Positions 2,618-14,150 of a stretch of 14,252 bases of DNA are shown in pieces. The stretch lies in contig JAESSU010000400.1 in NCBI GenBank assembly GCA_016763955.1, forward strand, positions 1 to 14,252, in the 5' to 3' direction. Positions within the stretch are counted from its first letter, which is position 1; the number at the start of each line of letters is the position of its first letter. The DNA is from Phycisphaeraceae bacterium. GTDB lineage: Bacteria; Planctomycetota; Phycisphaerae; Phycisphaerales; Phycisphaeraceae. Both the position numbers and the translations under genes were made by a program. Below the pieces are notes generated by a model. The model had not been told where the DNA came from, searched no databases, and saw only the letters and a list, made by a program, of their open reading frames with translations.

Positions 2618-3451
2618 TTAGTGGATCTGTTGCCGGTTGTCGGTTGTCGGGCGGCGACGTTCAACGAGTTCAACGACGGTGGGATTTAGACCGCCACTGG
2701 GAATTTTGGTGAGTTCCATATCGCCGGGGTTGCGGACGCTTAGGTCAAAGTCTCCGACCATGGTGCGTTCGATGAGGTTTAGGAGTGTGGCTTGGTCGGG
2801 GGTTACTTCAATGGTAATACTCGAAAAGCGTGATTGGTTTACGCGTCGGCTTGCCGATTCGTAGCTGGTGTGGCTGCCTAGTGAGATGATTTTGACACGT
2901 TCCATCACGGGTAAAACCTGCACGCCGTATTGTGTTTGAAAGGCTGCTTCCATATCCACGAACATGCCTACACGCAATGCGCCAGGCACGGTCTTGGAAT
3001 TGATTGAGAGTACTTTAAGGCGTTTGCCACGGGATATTTTTTGATCGATCAGATCGGTTTGAGCTGATGTAAAATGTCTATGTAAGAGGATTTCGCCTGC
3101 ATTGGCTGATCGTTTAAGAGGTTCTTTTTGACTGATCGAAAGATCGAGATTGATCTTATCGACATAGCCCATTTGATCAAACGTTTCTCGAAATTTCGGT
3201 GTATCGGGAATACTGATTTCATAGACATCACGTTTGCGGATGCGGTCGCCTGAGCTGACGGGGACTTGAAAAATATAGGCTGGAAAACTGTTGAGTTTAT
3301 TTTGCTGTCTGATTTGTGAAATGTAGATATTGGTCAGGATCACCGCAGCTGCTGCGAGAACCACTGCCACGACGACAAGTTTGGTGTTCCCCGGATTTGT
3401 GGGAGTTTTAGGGGGGGATTGATGAGGATTGTTTGTTGATTCTACTGCCAT
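2618..3451 (-). CDS. cpaB: CpaB/RcpC-family Flp pilus assembly protein
   Basis: The protein has 277 residues when started at the ATG at 3451. CpaB/RcpC is a membrane-anchored periplasmic protein that works with the secretin in Tad pilus assembly and often has a SAF-type domain. Visible here are a Pro/Asn-rich cytoplasmic tail (1-22), one membrane segment (about 24-43), a SAF-like region (about 58-125, containing VSSGDRIRKRDVYE) and the CpaB core (about 143-243). The core carries LSINSKTVPGALRVGMFVD (148-166) and the ITIEVTPDQATLLNLIE pattern (212-228) typical of the family. An open frame continues upstream to 3541 inside the preceding gene. I chose 3451 because GAG lies six bases before that ATG and because it leaves a 25-base gap rather than a long overlap. 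The C-terminal tail is Arg-rich (ERRRPTTDNRQQIH). The call is good but the sequence is divergent. Confidence 0.9.
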   Translation of the reverse strand: MAVESTNNPHQSPPKTPTNPGNTKLVVVAVVLAAAAVILTNIYISQIRQQNKLNSFPAYIFQVPVSSGDRIRKRDVYEISIPDTPKFRETFDQMGYVDKINLDLSISQKEPLKRSANAGEILLHRHFTSAQTDLIDQKISRGKRLKVLSINSKTVPGALRVGMFVDMEAAFQTQYGVQVLPVMERVKIISLGSHTSYESASRRVNQSRFSSITIEVTPDQATLLNLIERTMVGDFDLSVRNPGDMELTKIPSGGLNPTVVELVERRRPTTDNRQQIH

Positions 3452-3476
3452 GAATTGCTCTTTGTTTTTAGGATCA

Positions 3477-4160
3477 TCAATGCCTGTTGATACTGATAGG
3501 GTGACGGTACCATAACAGCAGTTTAACCCCTGCATCGCCATCTGGACGGGCGCGAATGACTAAGACCTGTTCCGCTGGCGGGGTCAAGTGATTTGCGTTG
3601 TTGAGCATTGGACTTCGGACATAGACTTGACTGGTGGCATTACTTTGTTGGGTTGTTTGGCGAGTTTGGAGTTTGGAAAACCCCATGCTGATTGCAGCGT
3701 CGGCATAGCTTCGTTGAATCTGGTCTTGCGTTTGTCCAGTGACTTGCCAAAGCGCATATTGTTCAGTGATGTGTCCATCGGTGCGTGTAAAACCGGAGAC
3801 CCGTTTGCCGTTAGCGGGAGCTGGCAGATTCGCGGGCTCGCTGAGTAGAACTTGATCACCCTGGCGGATAAGTAAGAAATTCCCCACGTTATTGTCGGGG
3901 ATCATTCGGTTTGTCCAATCGTATGACTGTTCGTAGATGCCTCCCATTGAATCGTTCATGTCCCTATTCATATCCATTTGCATTTGTCCAGTGGTGACCT
4001 TTCGGACACGACGGGGCAGGACATCATCCCATACGGTGTAGACTGCAAAAGCGCTAATGACCAGTAATCCAAGGAGCATGGGAATCATCGCTGCACGATG
4101 CGCCCCTGTTTCTTCATCTTTATTCAACGGATTGTTAGTCGTGGGTTGGGGTATTTTCAA
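3477..4160 (-). CDS. Single-pass membrane protein of unknown function in the Tad operon
   Basis: I do not recognise a family for this 227-residue product. It has a short polar N-terminus, one membrane helix (about 25-44), then a Lys/Arg stretch (about 50-54), predicting a cytoplasmic N-terminus and a periplasmic body. Just after the membrane is a Met-rich stretch, QMQMDMNRDMNDSM (59-72), with five Met in 14 residues. The C-terminal half has alternating beta-like segments (for example QVLVIRARPDGDAGVKLLLWY) and no Cys or catalytic motif. The start is TTG at 4160: it overlaps the preceding TadE-like stop as TTGA and has GGAG six bases upstream. An in-frame TTG at 4172 lacks such a site. The position between TadE-2 and CpaB suggests an accessory periplasmic assembly component, possibly a diverged TadE/F-like subunit. 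That role is inferred from context only. Confidence 0.85.
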   Translation of the reverse strand: MKIPQPTTNNPLNKDEETGAHRAAMIPMLLGLLVISAFAVYTVWDDVLPRRVRKVTTGQMQMDMNRDMNDSMGGIYEQSYDWTNRMIPDNNVGNFLLIRQGDQVLLSEPANLPAPANGKRVSGFTRTDGHITEQYALWQVTGQTQDQIQRSYADAAISMGFSKLQTRQTTQQSNATSQVYVRSPMLNNANHLTPPAEQVLVIRARPDGDAGVKLLLWYRHPISINRH

Positions 4161-5107
4161 TAGGATCTCCAAGTGTATCTGTAACTGCGATTTTCAATGT
4201 CCGGGCCAAACCAGTAAGGCGTTGGGCCAGCATAGTGATAAGGGGAATGCCCGCGATAAATACTGTTAATCGCATCGGCTAGGTCGTTAGTGGCAAGTGA
4301 ATCCAGCCGCGTGTAAAGCTGTTCAAGGCTAACTGCACTAATCCCCCGCGTCGGGTCGATCACCGCCCCTGGATGAGGCTGCCAAATGTCATAGCGGTAG
4401 CCAGGTTCAATCATCACCAAGTCAGCACTGCGAATGAGATATTGGTTGCCGATCTGATCGACGACGTGAAGTAGACGTGGGGTTGATCGGGCAGGTGAGT
4501 CGGCGACTTGCATTTGGACATAGCTGCCTAATTCAACACGGAATTGTGTATAGCCTTGGGTGAATGCCCAAGGCAGATCATCACGTCGATGGCCATGCTG
4601 AATATCGCCTGCTAGTTTACGCCACAAGGGTGTGGAGTCCTGTGCAAACTCTAAGCGAAGTGAAGTCTGCACGGAGTGGCTGACATTGGACAGTGTTTCA
4701 TAGGTTTGCAGGGCTTGGGAGGACATGCCACTATCGTTAAGGAAGGTGTCATAGGCCAAATCTGTGCTTCTGACATAGCTCTGGGGCAGGTTTTGGACTT
4801 CGCCGTGTCCTGCTAAGAATGTCTCGCCAAGCTGGTCATTGGACTGTGAGGGGCCCACAGGTAAAGTCGCATCCGAGTGACGGTATGAGCGAAGCATTAT
4901 GTGAATATCGCTGGGGGCGCTGGTGACTAAATGTGAGGCTTTAAGCCACGCATCATGTCGATCCATGACCAGTGCATGTTGAACACGAACCACCCCGCGT
5001 CCTGCAAAAAAGAGCAGGCTCAGTGTGACAAAAATGATTGGCAAAGCCAAGACCATTTCAATCATGGCCGTCGCGTGACGGACTGGGCGTAGGCGGTCGC
5101 GTGTCAT
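4157..5107 (-). CDS. TadE-like pseudopilin-type protein (second copy)
   Basis: This 316-residue protein has the TadE layout: a short basic N-terminus (RDRLRPVR), one long membrane helix (about 14-36) and a large periplasmic domain. The junction reads HA-TAMIEMVLALPIIF, with Glu17 five residues after a possible processing point. This is the position of the conserved Glu+5 in type IVb prepilins and TadE, although Ala replaces the usual Gly at -1. Helix-flanking residues RVQHALVMDRHDAW match the usual TadE pattern of a post-membrane amphipathic helix. The rest is unassigned, with a Tyr/Pro-rich C-terminus (SPYHYAGPTPYWFGPD near 292-307). It begins at the TGATG overlap with the basic TadG-like gene and ends in the TTGA overlap with the next gene, so it is surely co-translated. 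The TadE/F-like class is likely; TadE versus TadF cannot be decided. Confidence 0.82.
   Translation of the reverse strand: MTRDRLRPVRHATAMIEMVLALPIIFVTLSLLFFAGRGVVRVQHALVMDRHDAWLKASHLVTSAPSDIHIMLRSYRHSDATLPVGPSQSNDQLGETFLAGHGEVQNLPQSYVRSTDLAYDTFLNDSGMSSQALQTYETLSNVSHSVQTSLRLEFAQDSTPLWRKLAGDIQHGHRRDDLPWAFTQGYTQFRVELGSYVQMQVADSPARSTPRLLHVVDQIGNQYLIRSADLVMIEPGYRYDIWQPHPGAVIDPTRGISAVSLEQLYTRLDSLATNDLADAINSIYRGHSPYHYAGPTPYWFGPDIENRSYRYTWRSY
4167..4170 (-). promoter_or_regulatory. Ribosome binding site deciding a TTG start
   Basis: On the minus strand GGAG is followed by six bases and then TTG at 4160. This fixes the start of the unknown membrane protein at the rare TTG codon that overlaps the upstream TGA as TTGA, rather than at the TTG four codons earlier. 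Confidence 0.7.
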
Positions 5108-7044
5108 CAGTGAGTTGGGTCTTCCTGTTTGGAGAGTTCTATTTTTGTTTGCAATTCCGACAAGACTGATTCATAGAGTTTGCCACTGATTAGAGGCTGT
5201 AACTCTGTGGACACAACGGCGTGGCTTAAGTCCGGATGTGGGTTGGCAACGGCGGTGCCTAACCATCCTTGATGCCAAAGCGTGCGGTTGTTTGCGTTGC
5301 TTACATGCAGGTCATACGGAGCGAGCATGGTGGGGGCTGTTTCGGTGGGGGCAGTGGGGCTAGCCCAAGGTAGATGACGCAAATGGTTCATCGCCACAAC
5401 AGTACGTTGAATCTGATCACTAAGCGGTTGAGTTTGTGAGGTCTCTACATAAAGCATCGGTGCTGGTTTGGGACTGTTTTTTGAAAAATTATAAGGTGAG
5501 GAAATTTTCAAAGGTTCTCCCACATTGATACCCAGCAGAAGATAATCATCAATGCGATAGATGGGTTGGCGGGGGTGTTTGTTGTTTGTCTCTTTGGGAA
5601 GAAGTTTGAGATTAATGGAACGGTCTTGCAATACATTGTAATGCCATATTTCGCGCCAGATACGCGGGTGCAGTTGTTTGATTCCCTTTTTTCCCCATGA
5701 TTTAGGATTAAGGTTTTTATCCCATGGGTAGTATTCGACATTTAAGGCTTTGGAAGTGTGTCGGTTTAGGAGCTTCCAACTGCCATGGCTTTTGAACTTT
5801 GGGTTTGACGGTTCGTAAGCACTTTTGATTTCCACAGTGATAAAGGCAACCTCACGGATTCGCTGTGGTTGGTTCGTCATGATCTGGAAGATTTGGTCTA
5901 AATCGGTGACCCATTTTGAATCGTAGATCGGTTTAATGGGGCGGGACTTGTCAGGCCAAAGTTGTGCAAGTTGTTGACGATTGATTTTTGCCAAATGGGT
6001 TGCTAATCGTTTGTGATGCATGCGGGATGCGATCGATCCAATTTTGCGGAATAAAGCCATGTCTTCAACTGCGGGCCTCTTAACGGTCGTTGATAGCTGA
6101 GGCTCGTCTTGCCAATAGCGTCTTGAATGTGCTTTAGGGATCGATGCTCGTTTAATTGAGATGGGGCATTTCCCGCGTGGGCCTTTGGGGGAGCCTAGTT
6201 TAGTTGTCAGGATGTTAAGGGTTTGCAAATCGTGGCGAGTGAATGGTTCATATATGTCAGTTTCTGACTGGTAGGTATGGTCTTTAAAGATGACAGATTT
6301 AAAATCGTCAAATACACCACGTTGCCAAGGGACAACTAATTGATCCGTGGGAAGCAGTAGGGCAGAGGCTTCTGTTTGCCTAGCGGTGGTGTCGAGGATA
6401 CTGCCCCGCAGGACGGAGAGTTGGGTTTGGATTTCTAGATTTTCCAGAATGGCTTGATTGATTTCATCAAGTGTCGAGATGGCTTGCCAGATGCTACCTG
6501 TGTTGTTGGATTTGTCATTCGGACGGGCATATGTAATGTTGTGTATATCTGCTGAGCTAATATTTTTTGTAATGAATTTCTTGGCGGCTTGTGTTTTTTT
6601 GAGTTCTTTGATTGTGATTTGTTTGAGATTATTAAAATACATCGCAACGGGGTTGTCATTTTCGATGGGTTGCCAGTCGCGGGGGAGTTTTTGAATGTCT
6701 AGTTGCTTAAGGAGCTTGTTCACAGCTTGAAGGTCTTTGGCGGAAAGGTCAATCGCGGTGGGGCTGGCGTTGATTAGTCCTGCTTGGACGATCAAGTTTG
6801 CCATCGCTTGGTTATTCATCGCGACCGTGTTGAGGCTTCGGGCAATCCAGCTTGCGCCCGAATCGGCACCTTCTTTGGCGCTAAAAGAAGTCATTTCTTT
6901 CACGCGTGCATGTCTGCCAATACTTAGGACTCCAAAGGCTGCTGCTGCGGTGAGCAGGAGAATGAGCAGTGTTAGTAACAGCGCATGGCCGTGTGGTTTT
7001 CGACGTTTACAAGGGTTCAAATCAGATGCTATCGATAAGATCAT
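5107..7044 (-). CDS. Large TadG-like pilus assembly protein, basic paralogue
   Basis: This is a 645-residue protein with one N-terminal membrane segment (about 20-41) after a basic leader, and a large predicted periplasmic domain. Just after the membrane is SFSAKEGADSGASWIARSLNTVAMNN (53-77 region), the Tad/TadG N-terminal pattern in which an Ala/Asp-rich helix leads into WIAR..NTVAMNN. The same motif and several later blocks occur in the 840-residue neighbour: W.AI..L.EI, LWP followed by KP and an IKS block, LNP, and LGIN..EP. The two are therefore distant paralogues. This copy is Lys/Arg-rich, about 81 basic against 57 acidic residues by hand count. The ATG at 7044 has no clear ribosome site; it lies 42 bases after the neighbour's stop, just past a small hairpin. 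TadG-like proteins are envelope components of unclear mechanism, so no finer role is claimed. Confidence 0.82.
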   Translation of the reverse strand: MILSIASDLNPCKRRKPHGHALLLTLLILLLTAAAAFGVLSIGRHARVKEMTSFSAKEGADSGASWIARSLNTVAMNNQAMANLIVQAGLINASPTAIDLSAKDLQAVNKLLKQLDIQKLPRDWQPIENDNPVAMYFNNLKQITIKELKKTQAAKKFITKNISSADIHNITYARPNDKSNNTGSIWQAISTLDEINQAILENLEIQTQLSVLRGSILDTTARQTEASALLLPTDQLVVPWQRGVFDDFKSVIFKDHTYQSETDIYEPFTRHDLQTLNILTTKLGSPKGPRGKCPISIKRASIPKAHSRRYWQDEPQLSTTVKRPAVEDMALFRKIGSIASRMHHKRLATHLAKINRQQLAQLWPDKSRPIKPIYDSKWVTDLDQIFQIMTNQPQRIREVAFITVEIKSAYEPSNPKFKSHGSWKLLNRHTSKALNVEYYPWDKNLNPKSWGKKGIKQLHPRIWREIWHYNVLQDRSINLKLLPKETNNKHPRQPIYRIDDYLLLGINVGEPLKISSPYNFSKNSPKPAPMLYVETSQTQPLSDQIQRTVVAMNHLRHLPWASPTAPTETAPTMLAPYDLHVSNANNRTLWHQGWLGTAVANPHPDLSHAVVSTELQPLISGKLYESVLSELQTKIELSKQEDPTH

Positions 7045-7086: not shown

Positions 7087-9609
7087 CTAATGCCAGAGCC
7101 TTGCTTCTGCCAGTGGCGTGACCGCTTGGAGATGGAAAATCATCTGTTGAAGTTGGGCTTGATTGGGCTGAGTTAGGTTGCCTTGGGCAAGATCATCCTC
7201 CGCACGATTGACCCAATTCTGAAAATCGGTGGCCTGTTGGAGTTGGACTTGCCACATGGGTGTCCATAAATCAAAGGAATGATTGTTGAAAACCGTCACC
7301 TGAGCCACGCCTTGAGTTCGGTTTGTGGGCTTGGTGCGGTCGAAGCGACTGGGCCAAAAAGCAGCTTGGTTGTGTCGACTGGCATATGCCAAAAAAGTGA
7401 GCTTGTTCGATTGGTAAACGCGAATTGATTCACGGGCCGCATCGCATTCACCGCCATCGTCGCCCCGGTTAAAGCTGCTGCTATCAAGTGTCACAGGCCC
7501 CGGCAGCGTATCGTGGTTGATCCCCTCAAACGGGTTGGGGATGCCCCTAACGTATGCCTCGTCATCCATTAGGTCAGGGTAATGGTTTGCGAGCTGGCTA
7601 GTGGAACTAAAGGTGTTGTCGTTTTCACGTCTTAGGGCGCGACGTTGGGAATTTGTGAGATCGCTATTGTCATGTGGGTTAAATTCCTGGCTGTCCAGTG
7701 AGGCACAAATAGGATTTTCATTGATCCCCAAATAAATCAGAACCTGATAGATGTACACCACATGATCTGCGAGGTTGTCATTGTCATCGTCAGGATTGTA
7801 TGGCGGGACACCGACTTGTGAATCACCTTCAGGAACAGGGCGGACTAATGTGTTGTCAAGATAAAGCCACATACGCTTGTTGTCACTAATTTCACGAACC
7901 TCAGCAAAGGGGGGGATGTCGAAATCCTGATCATTATCATCTTCATCTGGCTCAGCACGCAGATCCATCGGGTTTAGATGATTGTCACCAAGCCACCAGT
8001 TGCGAGACATGATCATATAGATGCTCGGCGATTGTCGAGACTCACGCATCTGGACTTGGTTGGATGCGTTTTGGCCGAAGTTGCTTTGCACGTTATACGT
8101 GGGACTAAGCGAACCGTCACTGGCAGCTTGCATAAACCCCTGTCCCCAGCGATATCGGCTTTTAATTTGTAATCGCAGATAGGCTGTCCGAGCGATGGTT
8201 TGATCATCTGGATTGAGTGTGCTGGGATAGTCTGCGGTCCACAAGGGTTTGACCATGCGATTGTGTTGTTTAAAACCGTTTTGCGGCCAGAGGTAATTAA
8301 GCTCATTGCGGCTGACATATTTAGTCATCTGTGCATAGTTTTGGCGGTATAAATTGATATGGCGATTAAAAGGCATGGGGCGGCGATTGGGATTGTGCTG
8401 CAAGTCATTGAGAATTCGGCCCAGTATCCCATAAGTATGATAGCCCGTGGGGGGACGGTCATAAGGGCTGTCTTCAATCAAAGGCGGATGAGATGTGTCA
8501 GATGGCGGTGATTGATATCCGCCGCCAAAAGGTGAACTCAAAGTGGCTGTGTTTGTCGCAGAGACCATCGCGTGCGGCAGTGCCAGTGATGCCCATGCGG
8601 TGGTTTGAGGTTCGGGTTCATTGAGTGTGACAGGCATGCTTGAAGGAGGTGTTAAGACCTTACTGATTTGCGATGTTAATCCACTTTGTGTGTCAAACAA
8701 TGCAAATAACGACTGTGGCATTTGAGCATGTGCCTGCTGAAATTGTCCTGGTGAATGAAGCATCGAAAATTCTAGTGATCGTTGCCCAAATACCGTGTCG
8801 AACGGGCCGCGGTTGGTGATGCGATGTGAATCATAATCCGGCAGTGAACCATGAAGTACAGGATTTATAAAATCGTCAAAGGAGGTTTGTAATTGTGAAT
8901 CACTATGTTCAGAATGCCTAAAGTTTATGTCCACGTCCCAGGGAATGGTTGTTACAAAAATGCCCGGACTGTTGTCAGCTTGTAGGTTCGCTCGTCCGAC
9001 ATCCGAAGCATGCACGTTTGCAAGTGTGGGCAGTGAGTTCATGCAGGCAATACTGATCTCATTGAGATTCTCAATCGCGGTCCACATATTGCCCGGGTAA
9101 TGTGTGTCTTGCGTGATGTCGTAGTTTCTAAATGTGTTGTGCACCTCTTTGAGTTCGTCGTTTTCCGTGGTCATTTCACTGTGAATACGCGAGAGTTCAG
9201 TGTTGATGACGCTGTCCAAAAGAGAGTTGCCACTGTTGACATGGTTGATCCCTTTCTCAGGATCGATAATTCTTTCAAGGCCCTTAAGTAAGACATCGTA
9301 TTCGTCATATTGTGCTTGGGCGACCATGGGCTGTGAATCTAGGACGGGGATCGCAGCTAGATAGCGTGTGATGGTGATGTTGTTCATTGCAACGGTGTTG
9401 AATTGCCGTGCGATCCAAGTGCCTTGTGCGTTGGCTGTAGCATCGGCTGAGTGCTGGGTGACGATGCGGTTGTTCACATGTTTGCCAAGGTTTAGCACGT
9501 AGTAAAGCAGAGATGCGATCAGGACAATGGCAAGCAACATGATGACCAATACCACGCCCCGTTGAGCCGCTGCGCGAATGGGATTTGTGTTGAATTTTTT
9601 CATCCTCAT
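7087..9609 (-). CDS. Very large TadG-like pilus assembly protein, acidic paralogue
   Basis: This is an 840-residue protein with a basic N-terminus, a membrane segment (about 18-40) beginning RGVVLVIMLLAIVLIA, and a long predicted periplasmic part. After the membrane comes TQHSADATANAQGTWIARQFNTVAMNN (51-77), the Tad/TadG-type Ala/Asp helix and WIAR..NTVAMNN motif. The C-terminal GVAQVTVFNNHSFDLWTPMW (767-786) is also typical of this protein type. It is strongly acidic, about 92 acidic against 61 basic residues by hand count, with runs DEDDNDQDFD (555-564) and NPDDDNDNLAD (605-615). The ATG at 9609 overlaps the kinase stop as ATGA. A second ATG two codons later (9603) has AAGGA nine bases upstream and could be the true start. 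TadG proteins are often about 400-600 residues, so this is long. Its role in the pilus envelope assembly is inferred from family and operon position. Confidence 0.84.
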   Translation of the reverse strand: MRMKKFNTNPIRAAAQRGVVLVIMLLAIVLIASLLYYVLNLGKHVNNRIVTQHSADATANAQGTWIARQFNTVAMNNITITRYLAAIPVLDSQPMVAQAQYDEYDVLLKGLERIIDPEKGINHVNSGNSLLDSVINTELSRIHSEMTTENDELKEVHNTFRNYDITQDTHYPGNMWTAIENLNEISIACMNSLPTLANVHASDVGRANLQADNSPGIFVTTIPWDVDINFRHSEHSDSQLQTSFDDFINPVLHGSLPDYDSHRITNRGPFDTVFGQRSLEFSMLHSPGQFQQAHAQMPQSLFALFDTQSGLTSQISKVLTPPSSMPVTLNEPEPQTTAWASLALPHAMVSATNTATLSSPFGGGYQSPPSDTSHPPLIEDSPYDRPPTGYHTYGILGRILNDLQHNPNRRPMPFNRHINLYRQNYAQMTKYVSRNELNYLWPQNGFKQHNRMVKPLWTADYPSTLNPDDQTIARTAYLRLQIKSRYRWGQGFMQAASDGSLSPTYNVQSNFGQNASNQVQMRESRQSPSIYMIMSRNWWLGDNHLNPMDLRAEPDEDDNDQDFDIPPFAEVREISDNKRMWLYLDNTLVRPVPEGDSQVGVPPYNPDDDNDNLADHVVYIYQVLIYLGINENPICASLDSQEFNPHDNSDLTNSQRRALRRENDNTFSSTSQLANHYPDLMDDEAYVRGIPNPFEGINHDTLPGPVTLDSSSFNRGDDGGECDAARESIRVYQSNKLTFLAYASRHNQAAFWPSRFDRTKPTNRTQGVAQVTVFNNHSFDLWTPMWQVQLQQATDFQNWVNRAEDDLAQGNLTQPNQAQLQQMIFHLQAVTPLAEARLWH

Positions 9610-12176
9610 TCTTCCTTGCTCACCTGTATTAGCAGTTGACGGACTTCATCGGTATTGTGGATTTTCCCTGCAAGGCGCAGGCTAATGCGAGCCTGATTAA
9701 ACTGGCGGACACCGATGTGATGCTTGGCTTGGGCAACAAGATGCTCGTATTCTGTGTCATTAAGTCGTGTGCGGATTTCGTCATTAGTAATGATTTTTTT
9801 GGCGCGATTGTATGCCGTCTTAGCGTTACCAAATTCACCTTTTGCACGGTACTTGTCCCCGGTATCACGCTCGAGGGTATAGTCGCTTAACGTTTTTAAT
9901 TGGGCAATCGCTGTGATGATGCGCGAGTCATTAGGAGCCACCGCCGCAGCTGCATTTAATTCTTTACGAGCAACGGCAAGATTGCTTTGTTTTAAGGCTC
10001 GGCGTCCTGCCTGATAGTGCATTTGGGTCTGAGCGGTGGTTAGCTTCTGCCGCAATCCCGTATCAGATCCCATGGCAATGGCATTTTGATAATGCTCCAT
10101 GGCTGTGCTGTAATTTCGAGCTGACATGGCATCGTCACCGGCAGAAACCAAGGTCGCACGGGCGTTGGCATTGTTGATCCGTGCAATGGCAGTACGCGCT
10201 TGGGGCATGTCTGCAAAACTTAACGCTCGGGTGTACTGAGTTGTCGCACTTTGCAGATCACCGGCACGTTCACGTTCCTGACCAACCTGATAGGCCATCT
10301 GTGCTCGAAGTTGATTGATCTGCTGAGCCACCGCAGAGTCTTCTTTGATCTGTTGAGCGCGACTGTAAGACTCAATAGCCTGAGATAACTGATTGTTACG
10401 CTGGGCAGTTCGAGCATCAACAAGAGCCTGCTCATACTCGCGTGTCCGCTTAAGCTCATTGATTTTTTGCCCCAGAAGTTGATTGGAAAAACGAAGCTGC
10501 TTTTCTTCAAGCATCGCAATCGCTTCGTCTTGACGACCCGTGTCCACCAACTGCTGGGCTTTGTCGAGAATGTTTGCGATGCGACTTTGCCCGACCATCG
10601 CGTTGAGCTTGATGCTCAGGTCATCTAATGTTTTCTGTTCCACGGGTGTGGGCGAGTAACTGTTTTGCTCAATAAGTTGCTGGCGGGCAAGGTCGTATTT
10701 TGCTTCACCCATTAACAGTTGAATCTTGTCAATCTGGTTGGCAAAGGCAGATTGGCGTTGCGTCTCACGAATGAGGACTTTGAGTTGTTCACGCTGTTTA
10801 GGTTCAAACGCGCCTGATTCATCAGCAGCAATGAATGCTTGTACCCCAGCGTCATAAGCTTTGTTTTTTAAATGAATGTGTGCTTCACAAAGCAGTTGGT
10901 AACCACGACTTTTAAGTCCCAAATTCGAACTTGCGGGCCACTGCTTGATGAGCTGTGAAAAGAGAATCGAAGCTTGCGGGTAATCCTTGGCTTTGAATTG
11001 GTCTAAAGCTTGTTTGTAGGCATTGTGTGCAAGGGTGATTCGTGCTTTATGTGCTTCTTCTTCCTTGTGGTTCTGAGTGAGCAAAAACCCGCCGAGAACC
11101 AGAAGTTGAATGATAATGAAAAGGCCAAGATACAAAGGCAACCGACTCTTACGTGGGAGCATCGCGGTGGGTTCGTTGGAACCGGGTAGGGCAGAAAGGG
11201 GTTGGTTTGAACTGGTCTTTTGAGTTTGACCTGTGATCGTGGTGGCGTGGAGTTGTGGTGTGTCAGGATGATCTATTGTGCCGGTGAAGTGCCTCTTGAT
11301 GGTGTCCACCAGTTCGCTGCCTGATGCGATACGTTGGGACAAATCCTTGGCCATCAGGCGATCGATTAACTGGCTAACGGTCTTGTCTAAGCCGGGAACT
11401 AACTCGTGGAGGGGCGTTGCTTTGGCACGATGGTTAGAATGCCACTTCATCCAACGCAGCGATTGATTGCGTTGGTCTTTGAGTACAAAGCGAAAAGCTT
11501 GTTCGAAATTTTCACGCCCCGCAAGCATTTCATAAGCAATGATGCCCAGTGCATAGAGGTCCGCTCGCCCGTCTACGGCTTCACCGCTGGTAAGCTGCGG
11601 TGCCATGTAGCGAACGGAACCTGCAGCCATGGTGTCGGTGTCGCCGATGAGTGAGGCAAGCCCAAAGTCACAGATTTTTAGTCCGCCATTATTGGGCATG
11701 AGAATGTTGGCTGGTTTTAGGTCTCGATGAACCACGCCATGATCATGTAGGTGCTGTAATCCCATTGCGGTTGCTGCAATAATTCCTAACGCTTGTTTGG
11801 GAGGCATGGGGGCTGCGAGCTTTCGCAAAATGGTTTCCAGTGAGGAGCCTTCGATGTATTGCATCACGATAAATAGACCGCGCTCTTCTGAGATGTATTC
11901 ATAGATCGCAACGAGATGTCGCGGGTCTTTTTCGGAAAGTTCACGCCCTAGTTTTGCTTCATTGGCAAAGTGCTCTTTAGCCGTGTGGGAATCCATGTCC
12001 AACGTGGTGGCAGATAACTGTTTGATAGCAACAATCCGGTTAAGTAAGGGGTCTGTCGCTCGCCAGACGATCGCGCTGCCTCCGGAACCGATTTGCTCAT
12101 CAATACGATATTTTCCCACCAGATCGCCTGGTTGGATAGAGGAAGGTAAGGCAGAATGGCCTGCTGATTGCGTCAT
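9606..12176 (-). CDS. Transmembrane Hanks-type Ser/Thr protein kinase with C-terminal TPR repeats
   Basis: The protein has 856 residues. The cytoplasmic kinase domain (about 22-295) shows a Gly loop GSGGSA (30-35), Lys52 in VAIKQL, Glu73, HRDLKPAN (150-157, catalytic Asp152) and DFG (170-172). It should be active. The usual APE reads AP-Q (192-194), as if the Glu of APEQ were lost, although its partner Arg282 remains. A Ser/Thr-rich linker leads to one membrane helix (about 346-366). The remaining roughly 480 residues contain about nine degenerate TPR-like helix pairs, for example near 388-415, 583-612, 675-702 and 766-795, and would face the periplasm. The start is ATG 12176, sharing one base with the TadE-1 stop (TGATG), with GGAG six bases upstream. 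The gene ends in an ATGA overlap with the acidic TadG-like gene. It probably phosphorylates Tad components. The periplasmic TPRs might replace TadD; both roles are inference. Confidence 0.95.
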   Translation of the reverse strand: MTQSAGHSALPSSIQPGDLVGKYRIDEQIGSGGSAIVWRATDPLLNRIVAIKQLSATTLDMDSHTAKEHFANEAKLGRELSEKDPRHLVAIYEYISEERGLFIVMQYIEGSSLETILRKLAAPMPPKQALGIIAATAMGLQHLHDHGVVHRDLKPANILMPNNGGLKICDFGLASLIGDTDTMAAGSVRYMAPQLTSGEAVDGRADLYALGIIAYEMLAGRENFEQAFRFVLKDQRNQSLRWMKWHSNHRAKATPLHELVPGLDKTVSQLIDRLMAKDLSQRIASGSELVDTIKRHFTGTIDHPDTPQLHATTITGQTQKTSSNQPLSALPGSNEPTAMLPRKSRLPLYLGLFIIIQLLVLGGFLLTQNHKEEEAHKARITLAHNAYKQALDQFKAKDYPQASILFSQLIKQWPASSNLGLKSRGYQLLCEAHIHLKNKAYDAGVQAFIAADESGAFEPKQREQLKVLIRETQRQSAFANQIDKIQLLMGEAKYDLARQQLIEQNSYSPTPVEQKTLDDLSIKLNAMVGQSRIANILDKAQQLVDTGRQDEAIAMLEEKQLRFSNQLLGQKINELKRTREYEQALVDARTAQRNNQLSQAIESYSRAQQIKEDSAVAQQINQLRAQMAYQVGQERERAGDLQSATTQYTRALSFADMPQARTAIARINNANARATLVSAGDDAMSARNYSTAMEHYQNAIAMGSDTGLRQKLTTAQTQMHYQAGRRALKQSNLAVARKELNAAAAVAPNDSRIITAIAQLKTLSDYTLERDTGDKYRAKGEFGNAKTAYNRAKKIITNDEIRTRLNDTEYEHLVAQAKHHIGVRQFNQARISLRLAGKIHNTDEVRQLLIQVSKEE

Positions 12177-13045
12177 CAATGACTCCGGGGTAAGGGCTCA
12201 AAAAAGTTCATCGGTTGTCGTGGTGAAGGTGGTAATTCGGTATCAATACCTTCGTTGTTAAGCGTGTAAAACGCTTTGACTAAAGTATGCTTTGCATCGG
12301 TGCTATCTGCAAACATCGGCCAGACATATGGAACCGCTAGATGAAGCTGATGCTCGACTTGAACGGTGATTGGTTCCCGTGGGCCAAATTGGTATAAGCC
12401 CTCTTTTAATTCATCCCATTGCAGGTCGGTTGCACTTTCGGTCACCGCACGCAAGAGGGTGATACTTGTATGTGCGTTGGCATAGGCTAATCGCTGAGCA
12501 AGCAAACCATCGATCCACTTTGGTGGTGTTTGATTAAGTGCTGTGTAATAGGATCGGAATCCTTCGACTAAAGCCTGTGAGGTGCTCGTGGGGGAGTCTT
12601 GTGTTCGACCTGCAACTGGGAGCAATGCAAACACAGCAGCTTGACGAATATACTCCGCTTTGGGGCCATCAGGGAGAAAAATGTAATTGCGGGATTCATC
12701 GTTGGGGTCATTGATATCGTCCATAGGCACGGTGGTGATCGCTCGGCGTGTTGCCGCAAAAGCAGCATAGTGAACAAAAATATTGCCCCCCATGACCAGC
12801 GTCGTCTGCGCTAAAGTCAACGTGCAAAACAGTAACATGGGAAGGATCAAAACAAATTCAAGCGTGGTAGAACCCTGCTGGCAAGTTACCTTTTTGACAG
12901 GGAAATTTGCAACGCGAAAAAGAAATAGGAGAGAAAAAAGAACTCCCGCCAAACAGGCAATAAACAGCAAAATTAGCGGGCTGCTAATCCAATCACAGAT
13001 AGCTCCTCGGAGCCATGATTCTATGTGATTGATCGACGGGGACAT
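12176..13045 (-). CDS. TadE-like pseudopilin-type protein with an extra N-terminal membrane segment (first copy)
   Basis: This 289-residue protein carries a clear TadE signature: QQG-STTLEFVLILPMLL (56-71), where Gly58 would be the -1 residue and Glu63 the +5 Glu of a prepilin-type site. A membrane helix (about 62-84) and HYAAFAATRRA (92-102), the usual post-membrane TadE helix, follow. Unusually, about 57 residues precede this signature and include another membrane segment (about 22-43). No ATG or GTG lies between that segment and the signature, so the longer form from ATG 13045 is preferred; it has a modest GAG six bases upstream. If cleaved after Gly58, that first helix would be removed. 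The rest of the protein is a periplasmic domain without known catalytic motifs. The gene is one-base coupled to the kinase, suggesting the two products are made together. Confidence 0.85.
   Translation of the reverse strand: MSPSINHIESWLRGAICDWISSPLILLFIACLAGVLFSLLFLFRVANFPVKKVTCQQGSTTLEFVLILPMLLFCTLTLAQTTLVMGGNIFVHYAAFAATRRAITTVPMDDINDPNDESRNYIFLPDGPKAEYIRQAAVFALLPVAGRTQDSPTSTSQALVEGFRSYYTALNQTPPKWIDGLLAQRLAYANAHTSITLLRAVTESATDLQWDELKEGLYQFGPREPITVQVEHQLHLAVPYVWPMFADSTDAKHTLVKAFYTLNNEGIDTELPPSPRQPMNFFEPLPRSH
12183..12186 (-). promoter_or_regulatory. Ribosome binding site fixing the kinase start
   Basis: GGAG on the minus strand lies six bases before the ATG at 12176, inside the 3' end of the TadE-like gene. 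It supports the TGATG-coupled ATG over the in-frame TTG one codon earlier. Confidence 0.65.
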
Positions 13046-13129: not shown

Positions 13130-13819
13130 TCAACTCCAAGGCATGGGGACATGGAGTAAAAATTCAATCCCTGCGATCAAACCACCACCAGCCACCGCGA
13201 CACCAAAAGGGACGCGTGGGCTGTCCGTGGGCATGTTGGGTTTTACTTTTGCGGATAGCGTCATCACCGTTGATAAAATTCGCATTAGCGTTCGCCCCAT
13301 AATCCGGTGACGGCACATGATGATGATGGCCATGACAAACGCAAGGGCAAAGCTGTACACCAAACAACCTAAGGCGCATTCCCAGTTGGCACAAATCGCA
13401 CCAAACCCAGCACAAAGTTTAACATCACCGCCGCCCATCCCGCCCACAAAAAACATGATCGCCATCGGCAGGAAACCGGCAAGGAGTCCGAGTCCACTAC
13501 TGCCCATCCCTTGCCCAAAGGTTTCAAAACCAAGTTGGCAATAACCTGCAATCCCTGCCCAAATCAATCCGAGTAAAACGGCGGTAAGGGTTAGCCAATT
13601 GGGAATCTTGTCTGTGCGTAAATCACACACAGCTGCCGTGGCTAGCACCACGATCAGGACACCTAAGCTGACAACCTCATGTGGACTGGCATTCACAGGC
13701 AGGTCTTTCGTATTGAACGGTGACAAAGTATTCGTAAGCAATGCAAAACCAGACTCCGGGGGCCGGGGTTTGGGGGGCGGGTTTTTAGCCACCGTCTGTG
13801 GTGATGCATTGCAATACAA
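13130..13819 (-). CDS. cpaA: CpaA/TadV-type A24 prepilin peptidase
   Basis: This is a polytopic aspartyl protease that removes the leader of Flp-type prepilins at the inner membrane. Both catalytic motifs are visible: AVCDLRTDKIPNW with Asp66, and GGMGGGDVKLCAGFG with Asp132 in the GxGD motif. Several membrane helices lie at about 46-65, 76-94, 109-127 and 150-170, and near the C-terminus RVPFGVAVAGGGLIAG (202-217) matches the family. There is no N-methylase domain, as usual for Tad. The start is uncertain. The longest form begins at TTG 13819 (229 aa) and includes a Pro-rich tail PPPKPRPP. A GTG at 13696 would give 188 aa, closer to the family's usual size and beginning just before the first helix. 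An open frame extends eight codons above 13819 without a normal start codon. The gap to the pilin stop is 33 bases with the long form. Confidence 0.93.
   Translation of the reverse strand: MYCNASPQTVAKNPPPKPRPPESGFALLTNTLSPFNTKDLPVNASPHEVVSLGVLIVVLATAAVCDLRTDKIPNWLTLTAVLLGLIWAGIAGYCQLGFETFGQGMGSSGLGLLAGFLPMAIMFFVGGMGGGDVKLCAGFGAICANWECALGCLVYSFALAFVMAIIIMCRHRIMGRTLMRILSTVMTLSAKVKPNMPTDSPRVPFGVAVAGGGLIAGIEFLLHVPMPWS
13758..13781 (+). other. Potential G-quadruplex motif at the 5' end of the prepilin peptidase gene
   Basis: The plus strand, which is the template strand for this operon, has four G-runs of 5, 4, 6 and 3 bases separated by CC, TTT and C. This satisfies the common G3+N1-7 rule. It encodes the Pro-rich PPPKPRPP segment on the minus strand, or lies in the untranslated leader if translation starts at GTG 13696. 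Quadruplex formation is a prediction only. Confidence 0.6.
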
Positions 13820-13852: not shown

Positions 13853-14098
13853 TTAGCCAGCATCGTCGAACGTACCATCATCACTAGGCAGGTCGCCGGT
13901 GTCTGATTCGATATCGTTCCAATTGCCTTTGACCATGTCGGTGATTTCGCGACGGTAGAAGAATAAAGCAGCTAACATTGGCAGCACAATCGCGCCGATG
14001 ATCAGCAGCTTTTCAAGTCCTTCAGCACCTTGTTCATCACGATAAAGTCGTGTGGCTTGTGCAGAAATACGATGAGCTAGTTCTTTGGCTCGTTGCAT
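13853..14098 (-). CDS. Flp-like type IVb pilin
   Basis: This is an 81-residue prepilin of the Tad pilus. A basic leader (1-24) ends in DEQG, followed by AEGLEKLLIIGAIVLPMLAA. Cleavage after Gly24 would place Glu at +5, as in Flp pilins, and leave a mature pilin of 57 residues. Lys replaces the usual Tyr at +6. The hydrophobic core (about 28-47) is followed by FFYRREITDMVKGNW and an acidic tail with eight Asp/Glu in the last 23 residues. The start is ATG 14098, chosen because AAAGGA lies six bases upstream. An in-frame ATG at 14146 would add a Pro/Ala-rich stretch and lacks a comparable site. The substrate peptidase is the next gene. It is probably the major subunit of the fibre, since no other small pilin is in the window. 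Confidence 0.92.
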   Translation of the reverse strand: MQRAKELAHRISAQATRLYRDEQGAEGLEKLLIIGAIVLPMLAALFFYRREITDMVKGNWNDIESDTGDLPSDDGTFDDAG

Positions 14099-14104
14099 TG
14101 GGAA

Positions 14105-14110
14105 TCCTTT
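14105..14110 (-). promoter_or_regulatory. Strong ribosome binding site of the pilin gene
   Basis: AAAGGA on the minus strand is six bases before the ATG at 14098. It is the best ribosome site in the window, fits a highly translated structural subunit, and argues against the earlier ATG at 14146. Confidence 0.75.
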
Positions 14111-14150
14111 CTTAAAGGCAAAGGCTGGGGCTGGTAAATCGTCCATAAAT

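Follow-up and report, generated by a model that had tools for sequence, protein, structure and literature searches.

The DNA analyzed here, referred to as the window, is a complete contig of 14,252 bases (C298) from the draft genome of a Phycisphaeraceae bacterium (559 contigs totaling 3.58 Mb, at 78.5% completeness). It encodes a Tad (type IVc) pilus locus and, among the pilus genes, a membrane Hanks-type Ser/Thr kinase. In planctomycetes, the family to which this kinase belongs is encoded together with Tad pilus genes and with FHA domains, which suggests that the pilus is under protein-phosphorylation control. All genes read on the contig lie on the minus strand. In order, they encode a Flp-like prepilin (13853 to 14146; Pfam Flp1_like, E = 0.0018), a prepilin peptidase (13130 to 13819), a TadE-like protein (12176 to 13045), the kinase (9606 to 12176), TadG-like protein 1 (7087 to 9609; a weak Pfam Tad match), the related TadG-like protein 2 (5107 to 7044; no Pfam match), a second TadE-like protein, TadEx (4157 to 5107; N-terminal segment recognized by eye, no Pfam match), the conserved orfX (3477 to 4172; family unassigned, TTG start uncertain), a CpaB/RcpC-like alignment protein (2618 to 3541), a CpaF/TadA motor ATPase (721 to 2592), and a TadB-like inner-membrane platform protein (2 to 712), which is cut by the contig end. 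The locus is recognizable as Tad by its CpaF-type motor, TadB and TadC, prepilin peptidase, Flp prepilin, and TadE/TadG proteins, with T2SSE, T2SSF, Peptidase_A24, and TadE scoring above curated Pfam cutoffs; the weak side of this naming is that the CpaB/RcpC, TadG-like, and Flp1_like matches score below them. The motor combines an N-terminal FHA domain (amino acids 24 to 88; E = 2.5e-11) and a T2SSE domain (E = 1.6e-58) in one protein and is therefore an FHA-fused (class III) CpaF.

The kinase comprises 856 amino acids, with its ATG at 12176 and its stop at 9606 to 9608. Its Pkinase domain (residues 24 to 285; E = 1.5e-48) contains the glycine loop, the VAIK lysine (K52), HRDLKPAN (D152), and DFG (D170); the domain looks intact, and catalysis is predicted. 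The APE motif reads APQ in the source genome alone among 20 aligned kinases. The layout runs from the kinase domain (approximately residues 21 to 297) through a disordered linker (301 to 349) and a single hydrophobic transmembrane (TM) helix (about 347 to 367) to an ectodomain resembling tetratricopeptide repeats (TPR; approximately 376 to 855), for which profile matches are weak (TPR_14, 3.7e-5). An AlphaFold2 model has a mean pLDDT of 88.6 and predicts ten successive helical hairpins between residues ~376 and 855; its pTM is just 0.45 because the model leaves the relative placement of the two folded halves free. The alignment behind the model held 82 of 120 proteins, omitting P0009 (partial), P0096 (odd length), and the remainder for size. 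The closest solved sequences are Stk1, PknB, and PknA, aligned to about residue 225, and Foldseek agrees; its best 50 matches are all kinases and thus leave the TPR part unmatched. An earlier reading of this DNA from its letters alone (the sequence-only reading) had described an apparently active Hanks-type kinase with one membrane helix and about nine TPR-like units, coupled by a TGATG overlap to the TadE-like gene and by an ATGA overlap to the TadG-like gene. Both overlaps and the helix are as described, the kinase residues are in place, and the modeled hairpins come close to the number of repeats.

The association with Tad genes recurs well beyond the window. Among 301 genomes sampled from the order Phycisphaerales, 44 match the kinase at an E value of ≤1e-40, and 43 of these hold a kinase of the window type (hereafter, a close kinase); the remaining match, in G082, is by the kinase domain alone and was not counted as close. 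Within the 43, G105 matches by its TPR part only, some others are cut at contig ends, and the relatives aligned are 28 to 70% identical across the protein. Fifty stretches around close kinases were fetched from these genomes, seven of which hold two, and a Tad-type gene lies within 3 kb of the kinase in 49 of them, with at least two such genes in 45. The kinase in the Tad operon, which the sequence-only reading had singled out, is thus a conserved part of the locus and not a passer-by. The usual block consists of an FHA-less ATPase, Flp, the peptidase, TadE, the kinase, TadG genes, CpaB, FHA-CpaF, TadB, TadC, a second FHA protein (FHA2), and often a PALP-type enzyme. In some loci (G008, G012, G016, and G022), there is no TadE or TadG at the kinase position, and the kinase adjoins CpaB and FHA-CpaF or lies one gene away from them. 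The FHA-less ATPase, a second CpaF-like protein, is encoded 5′ of the flp genes in most relatives (L050:5232-6374 and kin), so that in these the locus has two motors, one of them FHA bearing.

FHA2 is a membrane protein of ~310 amino acids encoded 3′ of TadC in relatives; in the source genome, its gene sits beside TadC on a separate contig (C161). It consists of an FHA domain, confirmed by Pfam in the four copies scanned, followed by a hydrophobic helix and then by a segment that looks helical, both recognized by eye. FHA2 occurs in 24 of the 50 stretches; of the 26 without it, most stop short of its position or cover only a different part of the locus. Close FHA-CpaF (E < 1e-200) is found in 38 of the 301 genomes, each of which has the kinase, and the five kinase genomes that lack it (G001, G102, G105, G160, and G057) are drafts of ~100 to 650 contigs. 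The order also has nine FHA-CpaF loci of a more distant kind (D-type; all whose match reached the FHA end), and in each the gene order is CpaB, FHA-CpaF, two TadB/C-type genes, FHA2, and a kinase. A survey of 392 genomes from the phylum yielded 120 with a match to a D-type CpaF at an E value of ≤1e-80, and most of the matches listed cover the ATPase part alone. Eighteen loci outside the order had a match reaching toward the FHA end (wider loci), and a profile search found a same-strand kinase after TadC/FHA2 in 11 of these. In 22 loci with an FHA-less CpaF, there was neither a kinase nor FHA2. The FHA domain of CpaF and the FHA2 gene, both overlooked in the sequence-only reading, are the likely readout of the kinase.

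Phylogenetic analysis revealed that the Tad-locus kinases belong together. In a maximum-likelihood tree built from 107 kinase domains, from which G105 and 12 close kinases (mostly near-duplicates) were omitted, a branch supported at 100/98 separates 56 Tad-locus kinases from the rest. The rest comprise L203, L208, the distant kinase D082, which has no Tad genes nearby, and 48 generic control kinases; these controls are matches to the window kinase or their neighbors, mostly from other phyla, and not a random sample. A W-x-x-W-H signature accompanies the clade. In the window kinase, it reads R241-W-M-K-W-H246 (minus-strand codons at 11439 to 11456, derived by hand from the residue numbers), past the region aligned to PknB, which ends at about residue 225. 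The pattern [RK]WxxWH is present in 49 of 50 close kinases, the exception being G105, which has no kinase domain, and in none of the 48 controls. Eight of the nine D-type kinases carry it as well, the ninth reading GWMQWH, and WMxWH is found in 8 of 12 wider kinases.

What lies beyond the membrane nevertheless differs among these kinases. A hydrophobic helix follows the kinase domain in all 21 D-type and wider kinases except L208 and the truncated L200. Among the 10 of these 21 whose ectodomains were scanned with Pfam, three have CarboxypepD_reg (one with PEGA and one below the cutoff), two have a caspase family domain (Peptidase_C14; L206:12879-16349 and L209:3399-6338), one combines Ig/cadherin with TPR, and three have no Pfam match past the kinase domain. 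These swapped ectodomains would provide natural variants of the input.

Between the kinase domain and the membrane, the linker is variable apart from T-[A/D/T/S]-x-[L/V/I]-P, ~5 to 16 residues before the TM window. In the window kinase, this element is T337-A-M-L-P341 (minus-strand codons at 11154 to 11168, again derived by hand). T-x-x-[LIV]-P is found in all 49 close kinases scored (G105 was excluded, its frame being the TPR part only), compared with a mean of 3.7 and a maximum of 12 in 2,000 shuffles of the linkers, and in 1 of 31 other TM kinases. Across 82 homologues, T337 and P341 do not vary, while each of the 25 columns upstream is conserved to ≤41%, and the site falls within a part of the linker with a pLDDT of <50. 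An aliphatic residue at +3 from threonine suits known FHA preferences. T-x-x-[LIV]-P in a disordered, otherwise variable linker thus fits a candidate FHA-docking phosphothreonine; the motif could also serve something else instead.

A phosphothreonine-binding FHA pocket is characterized by a conserved Arg, Ser, His, and NGT. In the FHA2 proteins of close-type loci (25 proteins, including that on C161 of the source genome), Arg, Ser, and His are present in 25/25 and the Asn in 24/25, which is the pattern of a canonical pocket.

The catalytic Asp and DFG or DLG are retained in 42 of 49 close kinases, as is the VAIK Lys where that part is present; one of the close kinases, G011a, is truncated. The other seven, six in one genus plus G009a, are pseudokinases with Arg for the VAIK Lys and, in six cases, HGG in place of HRD. 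All seven are encoded beside TadE-type genes, and beside TadG where the contig continues. In the same genomes, a second copy retains the catalytic Asp (in HLD, HQD, or HMD, not HRD) and DFG and is located in the Flp/peptidase/CpaB/FHA-CpaF part of the locus where the context is visible. T-x-x-L-P is kept in all seven pseudokinase copies.

We propose that a dedicated receptor-kinase/FHA relay probably controls the Tad pilus motor. The module is real and conserved; its mechanism, including phosphorylation, is what we infer. In this relay, the outer domain would sense the state of the envelope, the state of assembly, or contact, and the kinase would autophosphorylate T337 in the juxtamembrane linker in trans, perhaps as a dimer. 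Phosphorylated T337 might then dock FHA2 through its canonical FHA domain, and/or the FHA-CpaF motor might be recruited, and this recruitment would place or gate the CpaF hexamer beneath the TadB/TadC platform. In genomes with split loci, each half would keep a kinase copy, with the copy on the TadE/TadG side having turned into a pseudokinase; its retention of T-x-x-L-P is what would be expected of a substrate or scaffold. The suggestion of the sequence-only reading that a kinase with an outside domain signals inward is retained here as the best reading of the protein.

A broader version of this proposal is more tentative, and we would put it slightly below an even chance. It holds that Planctomycetota possess a branch of Tad systems ("phospho-Tad") with an ancestral core of receptor kinase, FHA2, and FHA motor, in which a juxtamembrane phosphothreonine would dock an FHA protein and switch the motor, outside-domain swaps would rewire the trigger, and split loci would evolve a pseudokinase partner.

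Several observations weigh against the relay or narrow it. The FHA domain of close-type CpaF keeps Arg and His (each 31/31) and has Ala at the Ser position in 27 of 31 proteins and Asn in 1 of 31; NGT was not seen in these domains. Lacking these pocket residues, the CpaF FHA domain may not read phosphothreonine. In D-type loci, the pattern is partly reversed, with the Ser in seven of nine CpaF FHA domains, the Ser in only four of nine FHA2 proteins, and the NGT Asn in none of nine. None of 10 linkers from distant kinases (nine D-type kinases and D082) contains the motif. Together, the missing motif and the partly reversed pocket pattern mean that the docking detail is at best lineage specific, and we read this as lineages differing in which FHA domain reads the phosphosite. 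The association of the genes has exceptions too. The G017 kinase stands alone, as the one stretch of the 50 with no Tad-type gene within 3 kb; FHA-CpaF is on its contig at a distance of ~75 kb. Among the 18 wider loci, the kinase is on the opposite strand in one, no kinase was found by profile in six (L205, L207, and L213 to L216; L214 has a weak match, E = 0.00098, and in L213 to L215 no other Tad gene was found), and FHA2 was found in just nine. The kinase adjoining FHA2 in L203 (L203:12380-15700; Glucodextran_B Ig repeats plus an FGE-sulfatase domain) falls outside the Tad kinase clade. No PP2C_2 phosphatase lies near the locus in 10 genomes searched, 4 of which have none anywhere. Finally, kinship among the genomes inflates the co-occurrence counts, and the 22 FHA-less control loci were chosen from the phylum listing, mostly from well-assembled genomes, and are not a random sample.

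The rival that best survives this evidence is a scaffold that works without phosphorylation, in which the kinase fold would dock FHA-CpaF, the TM helix and ectodomain would tie the motor to the envelope, and catalysis would be secondary. The loss of the usual Ser from the CpaF FHA domain in 28 of 31 close-type loci and the persistence of pseudokinase copies in seven stretches speak for it, as does a precedent: the part of the T7SS account available indicates that T7SSb EssC FHA domains, which lack a phosphothreonine site, bind the pseudokinase domain of EssB (PMC11217815). We nevertheless consider the scaffold unlikely, since most close kinases keep the catalytic Asp and DFG/DLG and the FHA2 pocket is kept, and since a scaffold leaves the invariant linker threonine unexplained. 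Less likely still, the kinase may report the state of the pilus or envelope to other targets, such as gene expression or metabolism, and not act on the Tad machine, with the operon merely coexpressing sensor and machine. Further readers do exist, as evidenced by nine FHA matches in the source genome, of which CpaF and FHA2 are only two; however, this explanation sits poorly with the finding that in Tad loci the kinase is constantly paired with FHA-CpaF and FHA2, and with its absence from the 22 FHA-less CpaF loci.

The sequence-only reading had gone further and suggested that the TPR part replaces TadD as a periplasmic assembly scaffold with a checkpoint role. The TPR-like part does lie beyond the membrane, and neither a TadD-like lipoprotein nor TadZ/CpaE was seen in the conserved block, where some open reading frames were unscanned and for which no genome-wide search was made. 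Nevertheless, replacement of TadD fails as a general role because ectodomains within the same kinase clade differ (TPR, carboxypeptidase-regulatory-like, Ig, and caspase-like), and in the window protein a TM helix connects the TPR part to a kinase. Moreover, the available part of one study describes TadD as a pilotin serving the Tad secretin and CpaO, the counterpart of TadD in Caulobacter, as dispensable (PMC13170226), and in ten genomes searched, no contig that carries the locus has a secretin (PF00263) less than 40 kb from it. All ten have secretins; the closest on the same contig is 42 kb off (G047), and in three drafts (G000, G010, and G037) they lie on other contigs, so that linkage to the locus is undecided there. 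We therefore regard this role as highly improbable. A divergent gene that is conserved 5′ of the FHA-less ATPase in Phycisphaeraceae loci (L050:4071-4784 and 11 further stretches) encodes a HEAT/TPR protein of ~235 amino acids (assignment from one scanned copy) with no evident signal sequence; it was considered as tadD and rejected because 11 of the 12 copies compared lack a lipobox, the 12th (G094) having been read with a long upstream extension. That a generic membrane kinase hitchhikes in the operon by chance, given the many kinases in these genomes, is scarcely credible in view of the clade, the W-x-x-W-H signature, the co-occurrence, and the controls.

The nearest parallels to this arrangement are found in other secretion-type machines and in other Tad systems. 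In type VI secretion systems (T6SS), PpkA, Fha1, and PppA act in a threonine phosphorylation pathway. Positive control of T6SS through threonine phosphorylation is described in the part of the literature covered here (PMC5995506). The PpkA-Fha1 pair resembles the window locus in that a secretion-type machine with an FHA target is accompanied by a Hanks kinase in the membrane, but the machine is a different one, and here FHA domains sit on the motor itself and on a membrane protein; the window locus holds Tad genes, with no PppA-type phosphatase (PP2C_2) near it in the ten genomes. T7SSd/e resemble it in having a kinase (TsdD/TseD), an FHA-fused ATPase (TsdC/TseC), FHA proteins in some loci, and, in TsdD, a variable, helical C-terminal part, while differing in their FtsK-type ATPase, WXG100 proteins, and occurrence in Actinomycetota and Bacillota, according to the account available (PMC11217815). 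The window kinase domain is closest in sequence and fold to Stk1, PknB, and PknA; the window kinase differs from PknB-type kinases in an outer part that is TPR-like instead of PASTA, and its W-x-x-W-H segment falls outside the aligned PknB region. The MviN pseudokinase with FhaA offers a further comparison alongside the PknB-type membrane kinases.

FHA-fused (class III) CpaF motors have already been described for Tad systems in the portion of the work consulted (PMC12019362), and KilF of the Myxococcus Kil apparatus is such a motor (PMC8460266). Kil shares the N-terminal FHA domain on its Tad motor, has several FHA proteins, and is without TadG, RcpB, and TadD; it differs in having a secretin (KilC), whereas here a dedicated membrane kinase is linked and a secretin is not. 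The word kinase does not occur in the main text of the Kil paper, and its authors merely suggest a signaling cascade (PMC8460266). A survey of Planctomycetota kinases does not mention Tad in its main text (PMC11032199). We found no account of a Tad-locus kinase linked to FHA-CpaF in the open-licence PMC literature, as far as its text was accessible; within those limits, FHA-fused Tad motors were known before without a named kinase, to which the window locus would add a kinase-FHA relay dedicated to the pilus. If the relay is real, control by threonine phosphorylation extends from T6SS and T7SS to Tad pili. The kinase and phosphosite candidates described here, together with the second FHA reader, make it directly testable what the motor FHA domain reads.

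Three further observations concern related loci. In L158 (G105:C21:3500-23499), a TPR part without an in-frame kinase domain lies beside a Flp-like open reading frame and is possibly a decayed or frameshifted copy. A gene for a PALP-type pyridoxal-phosphate enzyme follows FHA2 in many Phycisphaeraceae loci (e.g., L051:3982-5196 and L057:14185-15411). Also, contig C140 of the source genome encodes a second FHA-bearing motor of secretion type (L034:1336-3195), which combines FHA (5.1e-16) and T2SSE (2.9e-106) domains in a single open reading frame and is only weakly CpaF-like by profile.

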